In this document: one piece after another, positions 28,121 through 32,956 of the stretch | Numbering within the stretch: position 1 is the stretch's first letter | Layout of the letters: the number at the start of each line of letters is the position of its first letter | Origin: Gammaproteobacteria bacterium | GTDB taxonomy: Bacteria; Pseudomonadota; Gammaproteobacteria; UBA5861 | Reading direction: 5' to 3' | Length of the DNA stretch: 54,293 bases | Assembly: GCA_022360445.1 (NCBI GenBank) | Contig: JAKSCV010000089.1 | Location: 1-54,293 of the forward strand | The notes under the pieces: generated by a model | Seen by the model: the letters and a program-made list of their open reading frames with translations, nothing else | What the model was told of the DNA's origin: nothing | Databases searched by the model: none | Position numbers and translations under genes: made by a program

Positions 28121-29614
28121 TCACTCAATGATAACACTGACATCCAACACCTGTTTGCCTCGCCTGATCTTCAGAGGGACGTCTGTACCCGGGCTAAAGT
28201 TGGTGATGGGTACCCAAATGGATCGCAAGCTCCGTACTTTTCGGTGCGCAAACTCCAGCAAATAGTCCCCTTGCCTAACTCCTGCCTTGGCAAAGGGGTA
28301 ACCTGCGAAAGCTTTGATGACTTCTATACCTTGCCCAGCATTTTCCTTGCCTACCCTCAGCCCAATTTTGTAACGGTGTTGACTGCCTTCCAGGCCTGAC
28401 TCCAGAATTTCTTCGTAGCGAGCCGACCGCTGAATATTCGCAAGCAAGCGACGGACAGCGTGTGACTCCTCCTCCCCCTGAGCTTCCAGAACTTGAGCAA
28501 AAAGATCCAGCTGCTCAGCATTGGAAAGCTTATTGTAACGACCCAATACCGATCGCAGCAGGTCCTCTGCCTCGGTATAACGGCCGGTGGCGTGGAAAAG
28601 CTTTGCCGCCACGATTTTAAAGTGCCGGTCGGTCCCTGTTTGTTGCAGAATAAAATCAACATAGTCCATACGCTGCTGCAAACTCAGCCCGTAGAAGTCA
28701 GTCCCGCTGATACTGGTGGCGTCATCGGCTTCTCGCAAGGTACGCCGCAATTCACCTGTCGCCAGGTTGACCGCTCGAATACCCTGAAGATCTTGCTGCT
28801 GGTCTTTCAACACCACTGCTTTGCGGAACGAAGCAAGCGCAGCGGAATAATCACCCGCCTTACGTTGCTGACGCCCCAGACCAAATCGGTAGAGCGACTT
28901 TTCCGGTGCAAGTGCAACAGCCCGCTGAATCAGTTCGACCCCTCTGGGGTTATCGCGATCCTGATGCACCAGCCGTTCACCATACCAATAAGCAATCCAG
29001 TCGCTATCGGGTTCCAACGCCAAAGCACCTTCAAACAACTCATCAATCGCACCAGGCGTTTGCCACTGACGATCATATTGCAGCAAACGCGCCAGTGAGC
29101 CCTGCAAGACGGCCTGCTGCCCCCGAGGAAAAGACCGATGCATAAGACTAAAACCACTACGGATCAGCTCAGGGATGCTATCCAGATAGGAGTCTGGTAA
29201 CCTGGCACCATAGTAATCTAGCTCGCGTAACATATTTTCCGATCGGAGAAGAAAGTAACGCAGCCGCAAAGACTGATCATTCGGGCTGAGCGCCAGTGCT
29301 TCTTTCAGACTTGACTCTGCATATTCCAGGTTATCCAGGCTGATGAAGCGCTCGGCAGCTGACATATGGGCCGCAAACATATCCCGTTGTTGCTGACGTT
29401 TTTCGATATAGAAGTAACCTTCTTTGAGACCATAAAAGAGACTCAAAATCGCCGTTGCCACCCCCACAAAAGCCACTGTTTTTTTGACGACCAATTCCGC
29501 TCGGGACCGTCGGCTGAGCTGCTCATGGCAATGGGGGCACTTGCTCGCAGAAATATGCACGGGTCCATAGCAAAACCGGCAGAGTGTGTCTGATTTTGTC
29601 TGCACTTCATCCAT
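28121..29614 (-). CDS. Zinc-ribbon / transmembrane / TPR / PDZ protein of unknown function
   Basis: This 497-residue protein has a clear modular layout. A short N-terminal zinc ribbon (Cys12-x2-Cys15 and Cys26-x2-Cys29) is followed by a basic stretch and one membrane segment (about 46-63), a long TPR-like helical region (about 80-400; e.g. FISLDNLEYAESSLKEALALSPNDQ, GLGRQQRKAGDYSAALASFRKA), and a C-terminal PDZ domain (about 405-497) with AKAGVRQGDYLLEFAHRKV. With a cytoplasmic zinc ribbon, TPR and PDZ would lie in the periplasm. I know no named protein with exactly this order. It stands alone between the dsbD operon and the DUF2058 gene, on the same strand as both. Confidence 0.85.
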   Translation of the reverse strand: MDEVQTKSDTLCRFCYGPVHISASKCPHCHEQLSRRSRAELVVKKTVAFVGVATAILSLFYGLKEGYFYIEKRQQQRDMFAAHMSAAERFISLDNLEYAESSLKEALALSPNDQSLRLRYFLLRSENMLRELDYYGARLPDSYLDSIPELIRSGFSLMHRSFPRGQQAVLQGSLARLLQYDRQWQTPGAIDELFEGALALEPDSDWIAYWYGERLVHQDRDNPRGVELIQRAVALAPEKSLYRFGLGRQQRKAGDYSAALASFRKAVVLKDQQQDLQGIRAVNLATGELRRTLREADDATSISGTDFYGLSLQQRMDYVDFILQQTGTDRHFKIVAAKLFHATGRYTEAEDLLRSVLGRYNKLSNAEQLDLFAQVLEAQGEEESHAVRRLLANIQRSARYEEILESGLEGSQHRYKIGLRVGKENAGQGIEVIKAFAGYPFAKAGVRQGDYLLEFAHRKVRSLRSIWVPITNFSPGTDVPLKIRRGKQVLDVSVIIE

Positions 29615-29766: not shown

Positions 29767-30357
29767 TTAAGGGCGACTCGCGAGCTGCTGGATGATGATG
29801 TCCTTTTTTAATTCACCGGCGTGAACACCGCGAACAATCCCATTTTTATCAACAAAAACCGTATAAGGCAGGGTGGTATATTGATTACCGAGGGTACGGG
29901 TCAGCTCAATCGCATCCATTCCTCCCACCAATAAGGGGTAATTGATCTGGAAGTCCTCGGCAAATGCCTGAACCTTCTCCGGCTTATCCAGCGCAATGCC
30001 AATGACTTGCACTTGATCACCCAACCAGTCTTTTTGCCCCTCAATCAGCAAGGGAATTTCCCGGACACAAGGCGGGCACCAGGTCGCCCAGAAATTGATT
30101 AATAATGTTTTACCTTGCCACGCTTTGATTGTCTTTTGCTCGCCCTCCAATGTGCTCAAAACGAAGTCAGGCAGGGCGTCGCCCACTTGCACGACATCCA
30201 CCGGTTTGAGCGCCAGCTCATCTTGCGCCACGGGTGACTCCGACATGGTGAGGGAAAGCCACTTTTGATCCACAGTTTGCTGAAAGAAGAAGCCGCCTAC
30301 GCCCGATGCCACAAGCAAAAGCCCGATCACAAATCCTCTACGCTGATTAAAAGCCAT
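29767..30357 (-). CDS. TlpA/ResA-like thiol-disulfide oxidoreductase
   Basis: This 196-residue membrane-anchored thioredoxin-fold protein has one N-terminal membrane segment (about 8-25) and a periplasmic AhpC/TSA-type domain. Its active site is WCPPC (Cys94 and Cys97), with FWATWCPPCVREIP and the cis-Pro region TLPYTVFVDKNG. Such proteins reduce target disulfides, for example in cytochrome c maturation or general protection, with electrons from DsbD. It overlaps dsbD by 11 bases, which makes DsbD its probable reductant. Confidence 0.92.
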   Translation of the reverse strand: MAFNQRRGFVIGLLLVASGVGGFFFQQTVDQKWLSLTMSESPVAQDELALKPVDVVQVGDALPDFVLSTLEGEQKTIKAWQGKTLLINFWATWCPPCVREIPLLIEGQKDWLGDQVQVIGIALDKPEKVQAFAEDFQINYPLLVGGMDAIELTRTLGNQYTTLPYTVFVDKNGIVRGVHAGELKKDIIIQQLASRP

Positions 30358-32629
30358 AAATCCTTCTCACGTGGCTGATGAATGCACTGGCCTCCACAAA
30401 CCCATAAACACGTGCCTCTGGTAACTCCAAGCCATTCCTGTCAAAGAATAAGATCGCAGGGGGGCCGTAGATGTTAAATTTTTTCATCAACGCTTGGTCT
30501 TCGTCGTCATTTTTGGTCACGTCTGCCTGCAACCAAAGCGTGTTGCTCAGCACACTTTTGACACCGGCATTAGAAAAGGTAAAAGCCTCCATTTCTTTAC
30601 ACGTGACACACCAGTCGGCATAAAAGTCCAGCATAACGACCTGCCCCTGCTCACGGGCATCGGTCAGCGCCTGTTCCAACCCATTGATACCTTTGATATG
30701 ACGGAAGGGTAATGTGTCAACCGGGGCTAATTGTGTGCCGGACTTTACGGCTGCAATCTGGCCCAAACTTGCCAACGGTTTGAGGAAGCTGGGCTTGCCT
30801 GTCATGACTGAAATAAACAGAATGACTCCGTACAACAAGAGCAGAACCCCAATGCCCTTAGCCAGCTTCCGCCAGCCTGACGACTGGGCTGGCACGGCGT
30901 CCAGGGCACTGAGATAGACGGCCGTTACAATCAGCAAAGCAGCTGAGAGAAGAAGCGTAACGGCACTGGGCACGATGCGATCAAGCATCCAAATCGCCAA
31001 CGCCAGCATAAGGACGCCAAAAAACGCGTTGGTGGCATCCATCCATACTCCCGCTTTTGGTAATAGCCGACCCGCCGAAACACCGACCACAAGCAGAGGT
31101 ATACCCATGCCCATGCCCAGTGCGAATAATGCCAACCCTCCCATAACCGCATCGCCGGTTTGACCTATATAGACTAACGCAGCCACCAGTGGGGCCGTAA
31201 TGCACGGGCCCACAATCAACGCTGACAGCAGCCCCATGACGGCAGCCCCCTTCAACGTTCCGGACGTTTGGCGGTTGCTGACAGCAGTAAGGCGATTCTG
31301 AATTACCTGCGGCATTTGCAGCTCATAAAAACCGAACATAGCCAATGCCAGCAGCACAAAAAGCGCGGCAAACACACTAATGACCCAAGGATTCTGGAAC
31401 CAAATTTGGATATTCTCACCTGTCAGACCAATGATGACACCAGCTATGGTGTAAGTCAGCGCCATTGCCAATACGTAAACAAACGACAATTGAAACGCTC
31501 TGAACGTTGTGATGCGGCCTTGGCCCACGATCAGGCTCGATAAAATCGGCACCATTGGCAGCACACAAGGGGTAAAGGTCAACAAAAGCCCCAAACCAAA
31601 GAAAATAGAGATAATCAACCAGATGCTGCCATGAGCCAGGGTTGCCGCCAGGCGGCCTTGTTCAGAGGTGGAGACCGTTGTAACCCCTGCTGTTTCTCCA
31701 ATAACCGATGCGGCTTGTGTGGGCGTAAAGTTCACTTTTACATCGCGTGTGATCGGTGGGTAACAAATCCCCTCATCCGCGCACCCTTGATACGTCAGAG
31801 ACAACACCGCCTCTGTTGCTTCATTCAAACCTGTTAACAGCAGCTGAGTCTCAAAAGTGTTTCTGAGGATGGCGGTACGGCCAAAATAGGGGTCATCTTT
31901 AATGTCTCCCGGCGGTATTTCGACCTGACCGATGGCAACCCCATAGGCTTCCTTAAGAGTAAACTCAAACTTTTCACGGTAGAGAAAGTAGCCTTTGGCC
32001 ACTTTCCAACGAATAGGCAACGCATGATCCACCTGAGGCAGGATTTCATACGAAAAGGCTTCACCGGGCGATAAAAACTCCTCGCCAAGATTCTCTGAAC
32101 TGGCAACAGGCGGGTTCTCTACTGAGAGCTCTTTTTCAGGCGGAGCATCCGGTAACAAAGACTTAAGCAAACTGATGCCAAGGCTACCTTGAGAGACTGT
32201 CAGCTGATGGGTAAACGGAGGATAACAAACGCCGATATCCGCACACCCCTGAGAGGTGGCTGACAAAACCCAGCGATCGATTGGCTCGCCTTTATAACTG
32301 ATCGGGAGCGTCAACAAAAGGCGGTTTCGATGCGTTTGTACTTCTCCAAAAAAAGGATCCTGCTTCTTTTTGCCCAGTGGAATTCCCGGTGTCCCTATAA
32401 CCACCTCGGGCGTTAACGCCTTGAACTCAAATTTTTCGCGATAAAGAAAGTAATCCTTTGCAATCGTATATTCGACCTGAATAGCACGGCTATCCACATC
32501 CACAATTTTGGCTTGAAATGCTTCCTCTGGCGGCAGCAGATCTTCCGCATTCATGGCGTAGGCAAATGGTCCAGAGACAATCCCCAAGACCAAGGTGCAC
32601 AAACAGATGAGATACTTCAAAAACGGCAT
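30347..32629 (-). CDS. dsbD: Thiol:disulfide interchange protein DsbD with duplicated alpha domain
   Basis: DsbD moves electrons from cytoplasmic thioredoxin across the inner membrane to periplasmic thiol proteins. This one is 760 residues, roughly 200 longer than the E. coli protein. After a signal peptide come two N-terminal alpha domains in tandem, about 30-145 and 185-300. Each has YFLYREKFEF, a DPFFG or DPYFG motif, and the redox pair in QGCAD-x-G-x-CYPP (Cys129/Cys135 and Cys283/Cys289). The beta domain (about 330-600, eight membrane segments) has Cys355 in FTPCVLPMVPI and its partner in LIVGPCITAPL. The gamma thioredoxin domain ends the protein with DWCVTC. It follows cutA by 6 bases. 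Confidence 0.95.
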   Translation of the reverse strand: MPFLKYLICLCTLVLGIVSGPFAYAMNAEDLLPPEEAFQAKIVDVDSRAIQVEYTIAKDYFLYREKFEFKALTPEVVIGTPGIPLGKKKQDPFFGEVQTHRNRLLLTLPISYKGEPIDRWVLSATSQGCADIGVCYPPFTHQLTVSQGSLGISLLKSLLPDAPPEKELSVENPPVASSENLGEEFLSPGEAFSYEILPQVDHALPIRWKVAKGYFLYREKFEFTLKEAYGVAIGQVEIPPGDIKDDPYFGRTAILRNTFETQLLLTGLNEATEAVLSLTYQGCADEGICYPPITRDVKVNFTPTQAASVIGETAGVTTVSTSEQGRLAATLAHGSIWLIISIFFGLGLLLTFTPCVLPMVPILSSLIVGQGRITTFRAFQLSFVYVLAMALTYTIAGVIIGLTGENIQIWFQNPWVISVFAALFVLLALAMFGFYELQMPQVIQNRLTAVSNRQTSGTLKGAAVMGLLSALIVGPCITAPLVAALVYIGQTGDAVMGGLALFALGMGMGIPLLVVGVSAGRLLPKAGVWMDATNAFFGVLMLALAIWMLDRIVPSAVTLLLSAALLIVTAVYLSALDAVPAQSSGWRKLAKGIGVLLLLYGVILFISVMTGKPSFLKPLASLGQIAAVKSGTQLAPVDTLPFRHIKGINGLEQALTDAREQGQVVMLDFYADWCVTCKEMEAFTFSNAGVKSVLSNTLWLQADVTKNDDEDQALMKKFNIYGPPAILFFDRNGLELPEARVYGFVEASAFISHVRRIYGF

Positions 32630-32635
32630 GATGGT

Positions 32636-32956
32636 TTATCCGGTGTGCTGATCAATCCAGCTTAAATATTCAGGCAGGCCCGCTTGAATTGAGACCGCAA
32701 TAATTTCCGGTAGTTCATAAGAGTGGAGAGCTTTGAGACGCGCTTCAAGTTCGGCATAACGCGCTTGACGTGTTTTGATGAACAGCAGGTGCTCCTCGTC
32801 TCGGCAAATCTTGCCTTCCCAACGATAAAGGGATGTACACCCTGGCAGAATATTGACACAGGCAGCCAGACTTTCTGCCAGGATAACTTCGGCAATACGC
32901 TCGGCTTCTTTGAGACTCGAAATCGCGCTGATCACCACAATAGGTTCTGAATCCAT
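32636..32956 (-). CDS. cutA: Divalent-cation tolerance protein CutA
   Basis: This 106-residue trimeric, ferredoxin-like CutA1 family protein shows ERIAEVILAESLAACVNILPGCTSLYRWEGKI, EEHLLFIKTR, and the ending YELPEIIAVSIQAGLPEYLSWI. CutA has been linked to copper tolerance, but its mechanism is unsettled. It leads the cutA-dsbD-tlpA operon, an arrangement also known in E. coli, where cutA adjoins dsbD. The AT-rich region just upstream (around 32965-33000) contains TATATT on the minus strand as a possible -10. Confidence 0.95.
   Translation of the reverse strand: MDSEPIVVISAISSLKEAERIAEVILAESLAACVNILPGCTSLYRWEGKICRDEEHLLFIKTRQARYAELEARLKALHSYELPEIIAVSIQAGLPEYLSWIDQHTG

Follow-up and report, generated by a model that had tools for sequence, protein, structure and literature searches.

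Two N-terminal alpha domains in a gammaproteobacterial DsbD: occurrence, divergence and association with the number of candidate clients

Why should a thiol:disulfide interchange protein carry two copies of the domain through which it delivers electrons to its partners? The question is raised by a dsbD gene (30347..32629, minus strand) in a 54,293-nucleotide stretch of contig JAKSCV010000089.1 from a Gammaproteobacteria bacterium (UBA5861), the whole of which is referred to here as the window. In E. coli DsbD (PMC7347389, PMC3961690), electrons pass from thioredoxin to the membrane domain, on to the gamma domain and then to the alpha domain, a hub that reduces CcmG, DsbC and DsbG.

The open reading frame starts with ATG and encodes 760 amino acid residues, which match the NCBIfam model PRK00293 at 701.7 bits against a cut-off of 330 (residues 182-756 on model positions 27-571). 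All of its features lie on the minus strand. Residues 1-25 (32555..32629) form a putative signal peptide, read from the sequence as probably cleaved after AYA; the full-length model places a low-confidence helix at residues 3-14. Pfam analysis reveals two DsbD_N (PF11412) matches worth 185 bits together, each of which alone exceeds the 25-bit cut-off (95.1 bits at 32195-32545 and 98.8 bits at 31733-32083). These are alpha1 (residues 30-145; 32195..32542), with Cys129/Cys135 and the cap loop D91-P-F-F-G95, and alpha2 (residues 184-299; 31733..32080), with Cys283/Cys289 and the cap loop D246-P-Y-F-G250. They are followed by the beta (membrane) domain (residues 336-553; 30971..31624; PF02683, DsbD_TM), which possesses Cys355/Cys476, and by the thioredoxin-fold gamma domain (residues 650-730; 30440..30682; PF13899, Thioredoxin_7), which possesses Cys674-V-T-Cys677 and matches E. 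coli cDsbD (2fwe) with an E value of 1.5e-32.

The two alpha copies are 43% identical over 120 residues (E 5e-28), a value that rules out chance likeness, and each contains the string YFLYREKFEF (residues 60-69 and 214-223). AlphaFold models gave a block pLDDT of mostly 91-98 for both. VIA-align of these models reveals that alpha1 matches Neisseria meningitidis nDsbD (6dps_F) at Z 17.4, and alpha2 aligns with E. coli nDsbD (5nhi_B) at Z 15.3. The initial annotation had proposed homologous repeats at residues 30-145 and 185-300, each with that string and an intact Cys pair, and this description is confirmed; its reservation that one copy might lack the DsbD alpha fold does not apply, since both possess it. 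One DsbD thus contains two complete alpha domains, each with an intact Cys pair; the DsbD hallmark of an N-terminal immunoglobulin-fold unit bearing the Cys103/Cys109 pair and a cap loop occurs twice. Among the features tested, only its count of alpha domains sets the protein apart from other DsbDs of the E. coli type.

The interdomain linker (residues 146-183; 32081..32194) is predicted to be disordered, and in the full-length model residues 149-183 (pLDDT <50) and 307-318 are disordered. Its length of 38 residues is close to the median of 35 (range 22-85) among 101 tandem proteins. A two-domain model of alpha1 and alpha2, computed as a monomer, reached a pTM of 0.50 and predicted no contact between them. 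Because the linkers are modeled as disordered and the pTM is 0.50, no fixed arrangement of the two heads is predicted. A short hydrophobic motif (for example LGxxLGL or LKxNLF) is found just before alpha2 in 42 of 101 linkers, versus 7.7 in shuffled linkers, and the same motif occurs in 20 of 101 linkers between alpha2 and the membrane domain; that of the window's protein was not modeled as a helix.

Directly upstream of dsbD, on the same strand and separated by a 6-base gap, lies cutA (32636..32956, minus strand; PF03091). Downstream, a TlpA/ResA-like thioredoxin-fold gene (29767..30357, minus strand; PF00578, PF08534) shares its first 11 bases with the end of dsbD; its product has an N-terminal hydrophobic stretch and a WCPPC motif, and matches the NCBIfam ResA-like and TlpA-like models below their cut-offs. 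It is probably a client of this DsbD, so that the initial annotation's proposal to this effect remains plausible. As a mark of the tandem, however, the adjoining TlpA-like gene has to be rejected: where the flanking sequence was long enough, it lies downstream of tandem dsbD in 16/19 and 51/70 loci, and 24 of 51 single-alpha loci have the same neighbor. Similarly, cutA precedes tandem dsbD in 19/21 and 57/71 such loci and single-alpha dsbD in 32/59, and the cutA-dsbD order is also found in E. coli K-12. From these neighbor counts we conclude that the gene order is old and is not specific to the tandem. Just past the TlpA-like gene, at 28121-29614 of the window, is a TPR protein whose C-terminal part contains a PDZ domain and whose N-terminal part includes a zinc-ribbon-like stretch; no full-length family match was found for it among the Pfam and NCBIfam models.

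The domain search and phylogeny recommended in the initial annotation show the tandem to be widespread in the class. A DsbD_N match is present in 51 of 56 relatives, and 20 carry the tandem in one frame. An even draw of 185 genomes from the class, searched with a profile of the tandem, gave matches in 163 and none in 22; the tandem is present in 64, and the other 99 match without it, some of these "single" genomes perhaps lacking a full-length DsbD; a few, G112 and G149 among them, have alpha-only frames. The figure of 64 is a hand count made up of 61 rows spanning both domains, G124 (cut by a contig end), and G122 and G147, where the two domains lie in one frame as separate matches and were counted as tandem; G017, whose row spans 4-278 in only 354 bases, was left out. 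A script check of the tandem labels on 137 genomes gave no disagreement, the label of G124 having been set by hand. In a draw of 80 genomes from the phylum, 60 fall outside the class; one of these has a short single match and all lack the tandem. Among the 20 class members of this draw the tandem is found only in the window's genome and in G013. Named carriers include Xanthomonas, Stenotrophomonas, Luteimonas, Methylomonas, Thiobacillus, Hydrogenophilus, Halochromatium, and Thiothrix. A further 80 loci were retrieved by a tandem query and are uninformative on prevalence; 79 have the tandem in one frame. In the remaining one, L111 (Candidatus Thiothrix singaporensis), alpha1 and alpha2-beta-gamma lie in different frames, owing to a frameshift in the sequence or the gene or to a true split.

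The tandem-alpha DsbD is, then, common in the class and not a local oddity. The statement that a typical DsbD has one alpha domain holds for E. coli, but 64 of 185 genomes of the class show the duplication, which is therefore no rarity there. The initial annotation had also asked whether close relatives share the duplication with a described function: they share it, but in the titles and abstract openings of a mainly open-access full-text literature no description of a DsbD with two alpha domains, and no described function, was found. The tandem segment of a genome of the same genus (G001) is 95% identical to that of the window. Because the two copies are 43% identical and other families of the class possess a comparable tandem, a recent duplication can be rejected.

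The four alpha cysteines are invariant in all 101 tandem proteins, a set in which at least two species are present in both collections (L093/L182, L064/L188), and the eight redox cysteines of the alpha, beta, and gamma pairs are invariant in the 58 full-length tandem proteins aligned. That both alpha Cys pairs are invariant rules out a dead second domain. In E. coli nDsbD the cap loop (residues 68-72, with F70) covers the active site (PMC7347389); its Asp (E. coli D68) is kept in 101/101 alpha1 and 98/101 alpha2 domains. HMM profiles of alpha1 and alpha2 assigned held-out domains correctly in 99/101 and 91/101 cases, respectively, in a five-fold test that is optimistic because near relatives are spread across the folds. 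The largest differences between the heads fall at E. coli positions 78, 113, 100, and 106, the last three of which neighbor C103/C109 along the chain. At position 78, 86/101 alpha1 domains have Arg and 77/101 alpha2 domains have His, Phe or Tyr, and the cap-loop residue F70 is Phe in 66/101 alpha1 versus 23/101 alpha2. In the window's protein positions 70, 100, 106, and 113 differ between the heads, but position 78 is Arg in both; alpha2 here resembles alpha1 at this marker, a point against the sharing of clients proposed below. Judged by sequence, alpha1 and alpha2 form two recognizable subfamilies, most of whose differences are located near the active site. The invariant alpha cysteines and the separability of the subfamilies indicate that both heads have long been kept.

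The 60 lone alpha domains, which include the alpha2 part of the split L111, were compared with the two types by thirds: 21 are alpha2-like throughout, 5 are alpha1-like throughout and 34 are mixed. The clearest alpha1-type single, L137, is so in all three thirds and nests among tandem relatives in a tree of the beta-gamma part. The E. coli alpha domain scores about equally with the alpha1 (115 bits) and alpha2 (112 bits) profiles, and the ancestral single domain may have been of such an intermediate type. In the alpha-domain tree, 36 of the 66 inner branches were drawn open, the domain being too short for most forks; 12 of 20 alpha1 domains, among them the window's, form a supported set with one single, and the alpha2 domains are intermixed with single alphas. 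The alpha1 and alpha2 of L012 group together, which points to some later re-duplication or gene conversion. The beta-gamma tree covers 137 of the 163 matching genomes (63 of the 64 with the tandem, and 74 single), the rest being incomplete or not fetched. It demands at least 20 changes of state, 7 of them by supported branches, versus 45.5 in shuffles; the tandem state is therefore inherited, yet has often been gained or lost. In our reading the duplication is old and was followed by losses of one head or the other, with re-duplication or conversion in some cases.

Several unusual forms were encountered. L184 (G013), L125 (Xanthomonas), and L119 (Stenotrophomonas) have a highly diverged beta-gamma part (branch length 6.5) and have kept both alphas. 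The place of dsbD in G112 and G149 is taken by alpha-only genes of 175 and 165 residues (L173:2746-3273 and L174:2908-3405), which lack beta and gamma domains and lie after cutA and before genes reading as aroQ, accB, and accC; L175 consists of an alpha domain and a short membrane stretch. G053, which also has a tandem-alpha DsbD, encodes a stand-alone DsbD-alpha protein of 156 residues with a putative lipoprotein signal (L056:3575-4045); its gene immediately follows those for a ClpB/ClpV-type AAA+ protein and TssG in a type VI secretion cluster. An alpha domain linked to secretion was unexpected.

The window's genome has one DsbD_TM-family protein and 8 matches to the CcmG/DsbE profile; the CcmG at C63 exceeds the cut-off, and the neighboring TlpA-like protein is another of the matches. 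A DsbA-like gene stands directly before the CcmG gene (C63:109660-110686). Across the class, the median number of CcmG/TlpA/ResA-like proteins is 9 in the 64 tandem genomes versus 4 in the 99 matching genomes without the tandem (Mann-Whitney p 1.4e-17), at most 17 TIGR00385 candidates being scored per genome, most of them below the curated cut-off and thus relatives rather than proven clients. The number is higher with the tandem in all five genome-size classes (p 0.003, 0.002, 1.7e-5, 1.1e-4, and 0.038). Phylogenetic regression on the beta-gamma tree, a DsbD gene tree used in place of a species tree, gave t 5.1 (p 1.1e-6), with t 4.9 without nine long branches and t 4.7 at a completeness of at least 95. 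As a control, the number of DsbA-family proteins in 48 relatives (20 tandem, 28 single) yielded t 0.34 versus t 4.74 for the TlpA-like number. Supported branches provide 7 independent pairs, of which 3.4 change the same way, 0.1 the other way and 3.5 not at all (median p 0.25); with only 7 pairs this test is too weak to confirm the link. Exceptions are G138 and G140, single with 14 and 9 TlpA-like proteins, and G041, tandem with 3. The link between the tandem and client number is a correlation, and it holds after genome size, phylogeny, and cytochrome c number are taken into account. DsbC was rejected as the reason for a second head in this organism, as neither the window's genome nor G001 has a DsbC_N match; across the sample this domain is present in 17/20 tandem versus 18/28 single genomes (p 0.19).

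What, then, might two heads accomplish? We lean towards a DsbD in which two partly diverged heads, loaded through a single channel and a single gamma domain, share an enlarged set of clients. Electrons from cytoplasmic thioredoxin would pass through beta (C355/C476) to the single gamma (C674/C677), which would reduce either alpha head, both presumably strung in tandem on flexible linkers at the N-terminus, on the periplasmic side. Once reduced, each head would in turn reduce CcmG/TlpA/ResA-type periplasmic clients, the neighboring TlpA-like protein included. The second head would stem from the old duplication, the heads having since diverged beside the active site, and they would differ in their clients rather than merely double the capacity. 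That the heads differ near the active site, and that the tandem goes with more candidate clients, favors sharing over plain doubling without proving it. A more specific version is possible if somewhat doubtful, namely that alpha1 and alpha2 have specialized for different groups of CcmG/TlpA/ResA-like clients, in step with the set of periplasmic reductases since an early gammaproteobacterial duplication, with repeated later loss of either head. It is unlikely, in our estimation, that the heads are equivalent, do not divide the clients between them, and provide only more reduced alpha locally or a longer reach from the membrane. Their catalytic residues are the same and most lone alphas (34/60) are of mixed type; moreover, single-alpha relatives interleave with tandem ones on the tree (at least 20 changes, 7 forced), so one head often suffices. 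Yet mere copies should drift otherwise than alpha1 and alpha2 have done, which stay distinct across the class with their differences beside the active site.

The initial annotation had suggested either delivery to different partners or a relay. Several partners is the better supported of these, and a relay from gamma through alpha2 to alpha1 and thence to clients appears improbable, even though the order alpha1-alpha2-beta-gamma and the long linkers would permit it and both Cys pairs are always kept together (101/101). In known complexes the alpha domain meets thioredoxin folds, and we know of no exchange between alpha domains. The two-domain model predicts no alpha1-alpha2 contact, although a monomer model at this pTM cannot settle the matter. 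Lone alpha1-type DsbDs exist (5/60, L137 lying among tandem relatives), and it therefore appears that gamma can reduce alpha1 directly; these relatives make an obligatory relay less likely. There is equally little to recommend the idea that the second head meets, via CcmG, a heavier demand for cytochrome c maturation. Tandem genomes do have more cytochrome c domains (median 19 versus 9, with at most 26 PF00034 candidates scored per genome), but with both numbers in the model, the PF00034 regressions using the unscored first-look number, cytochrome c falls to p 0.32 and the TlpA-like number keeps its association with the tandem (t 3.89, p 1.6e-4).

Most work on how DsbD serves its many partners has used the E. 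coli protein, which has one head. The widespread natural variant whose two heads have diverged offers a direct genetic test of partner choice, and the relation of head number to client number is a measurable prediction on how reducing power is shared in the cell envelope.

Among known systems, the DsbDs of E. coli and Neisseria (alpha-beta-gamma, PRK00293; nDsbD structures 1jpe, 1l6p, and 6dps) resemble that of the window in each alpha domain, in the Cys pair of beta, in the CXXC of gamma and in the cutA neighbor. E. coli DsbD has one alpha domain, whereas the window's has two, joined by the 38-residue linker; the classical single-alpha architecture is absent here, and the PRK00293 model demands no single alpha. 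ScsB, which is related to DsbD and likewise has a larger periplasmic region at its N-terminus, is organized in a manner similar but not identical to DsbD (PMC4460558). The structure of the N-terminal domain of Proteus mirabilis ScsB (6c29) aligns with alpha1 at Z 11; against DsbD alpha structures both N-terminal units of the window's protein score higher (Z 15-17), and both pass the DsbD_N model. CcdA belongs to the same membrane channel family (PF02683) and lacks an alpha domain, consisting of the membrane domain only (PMC4460558). What appears to be new, in the literature searched, is the form with two alpha heads, in what is otherwise a known DsbD.
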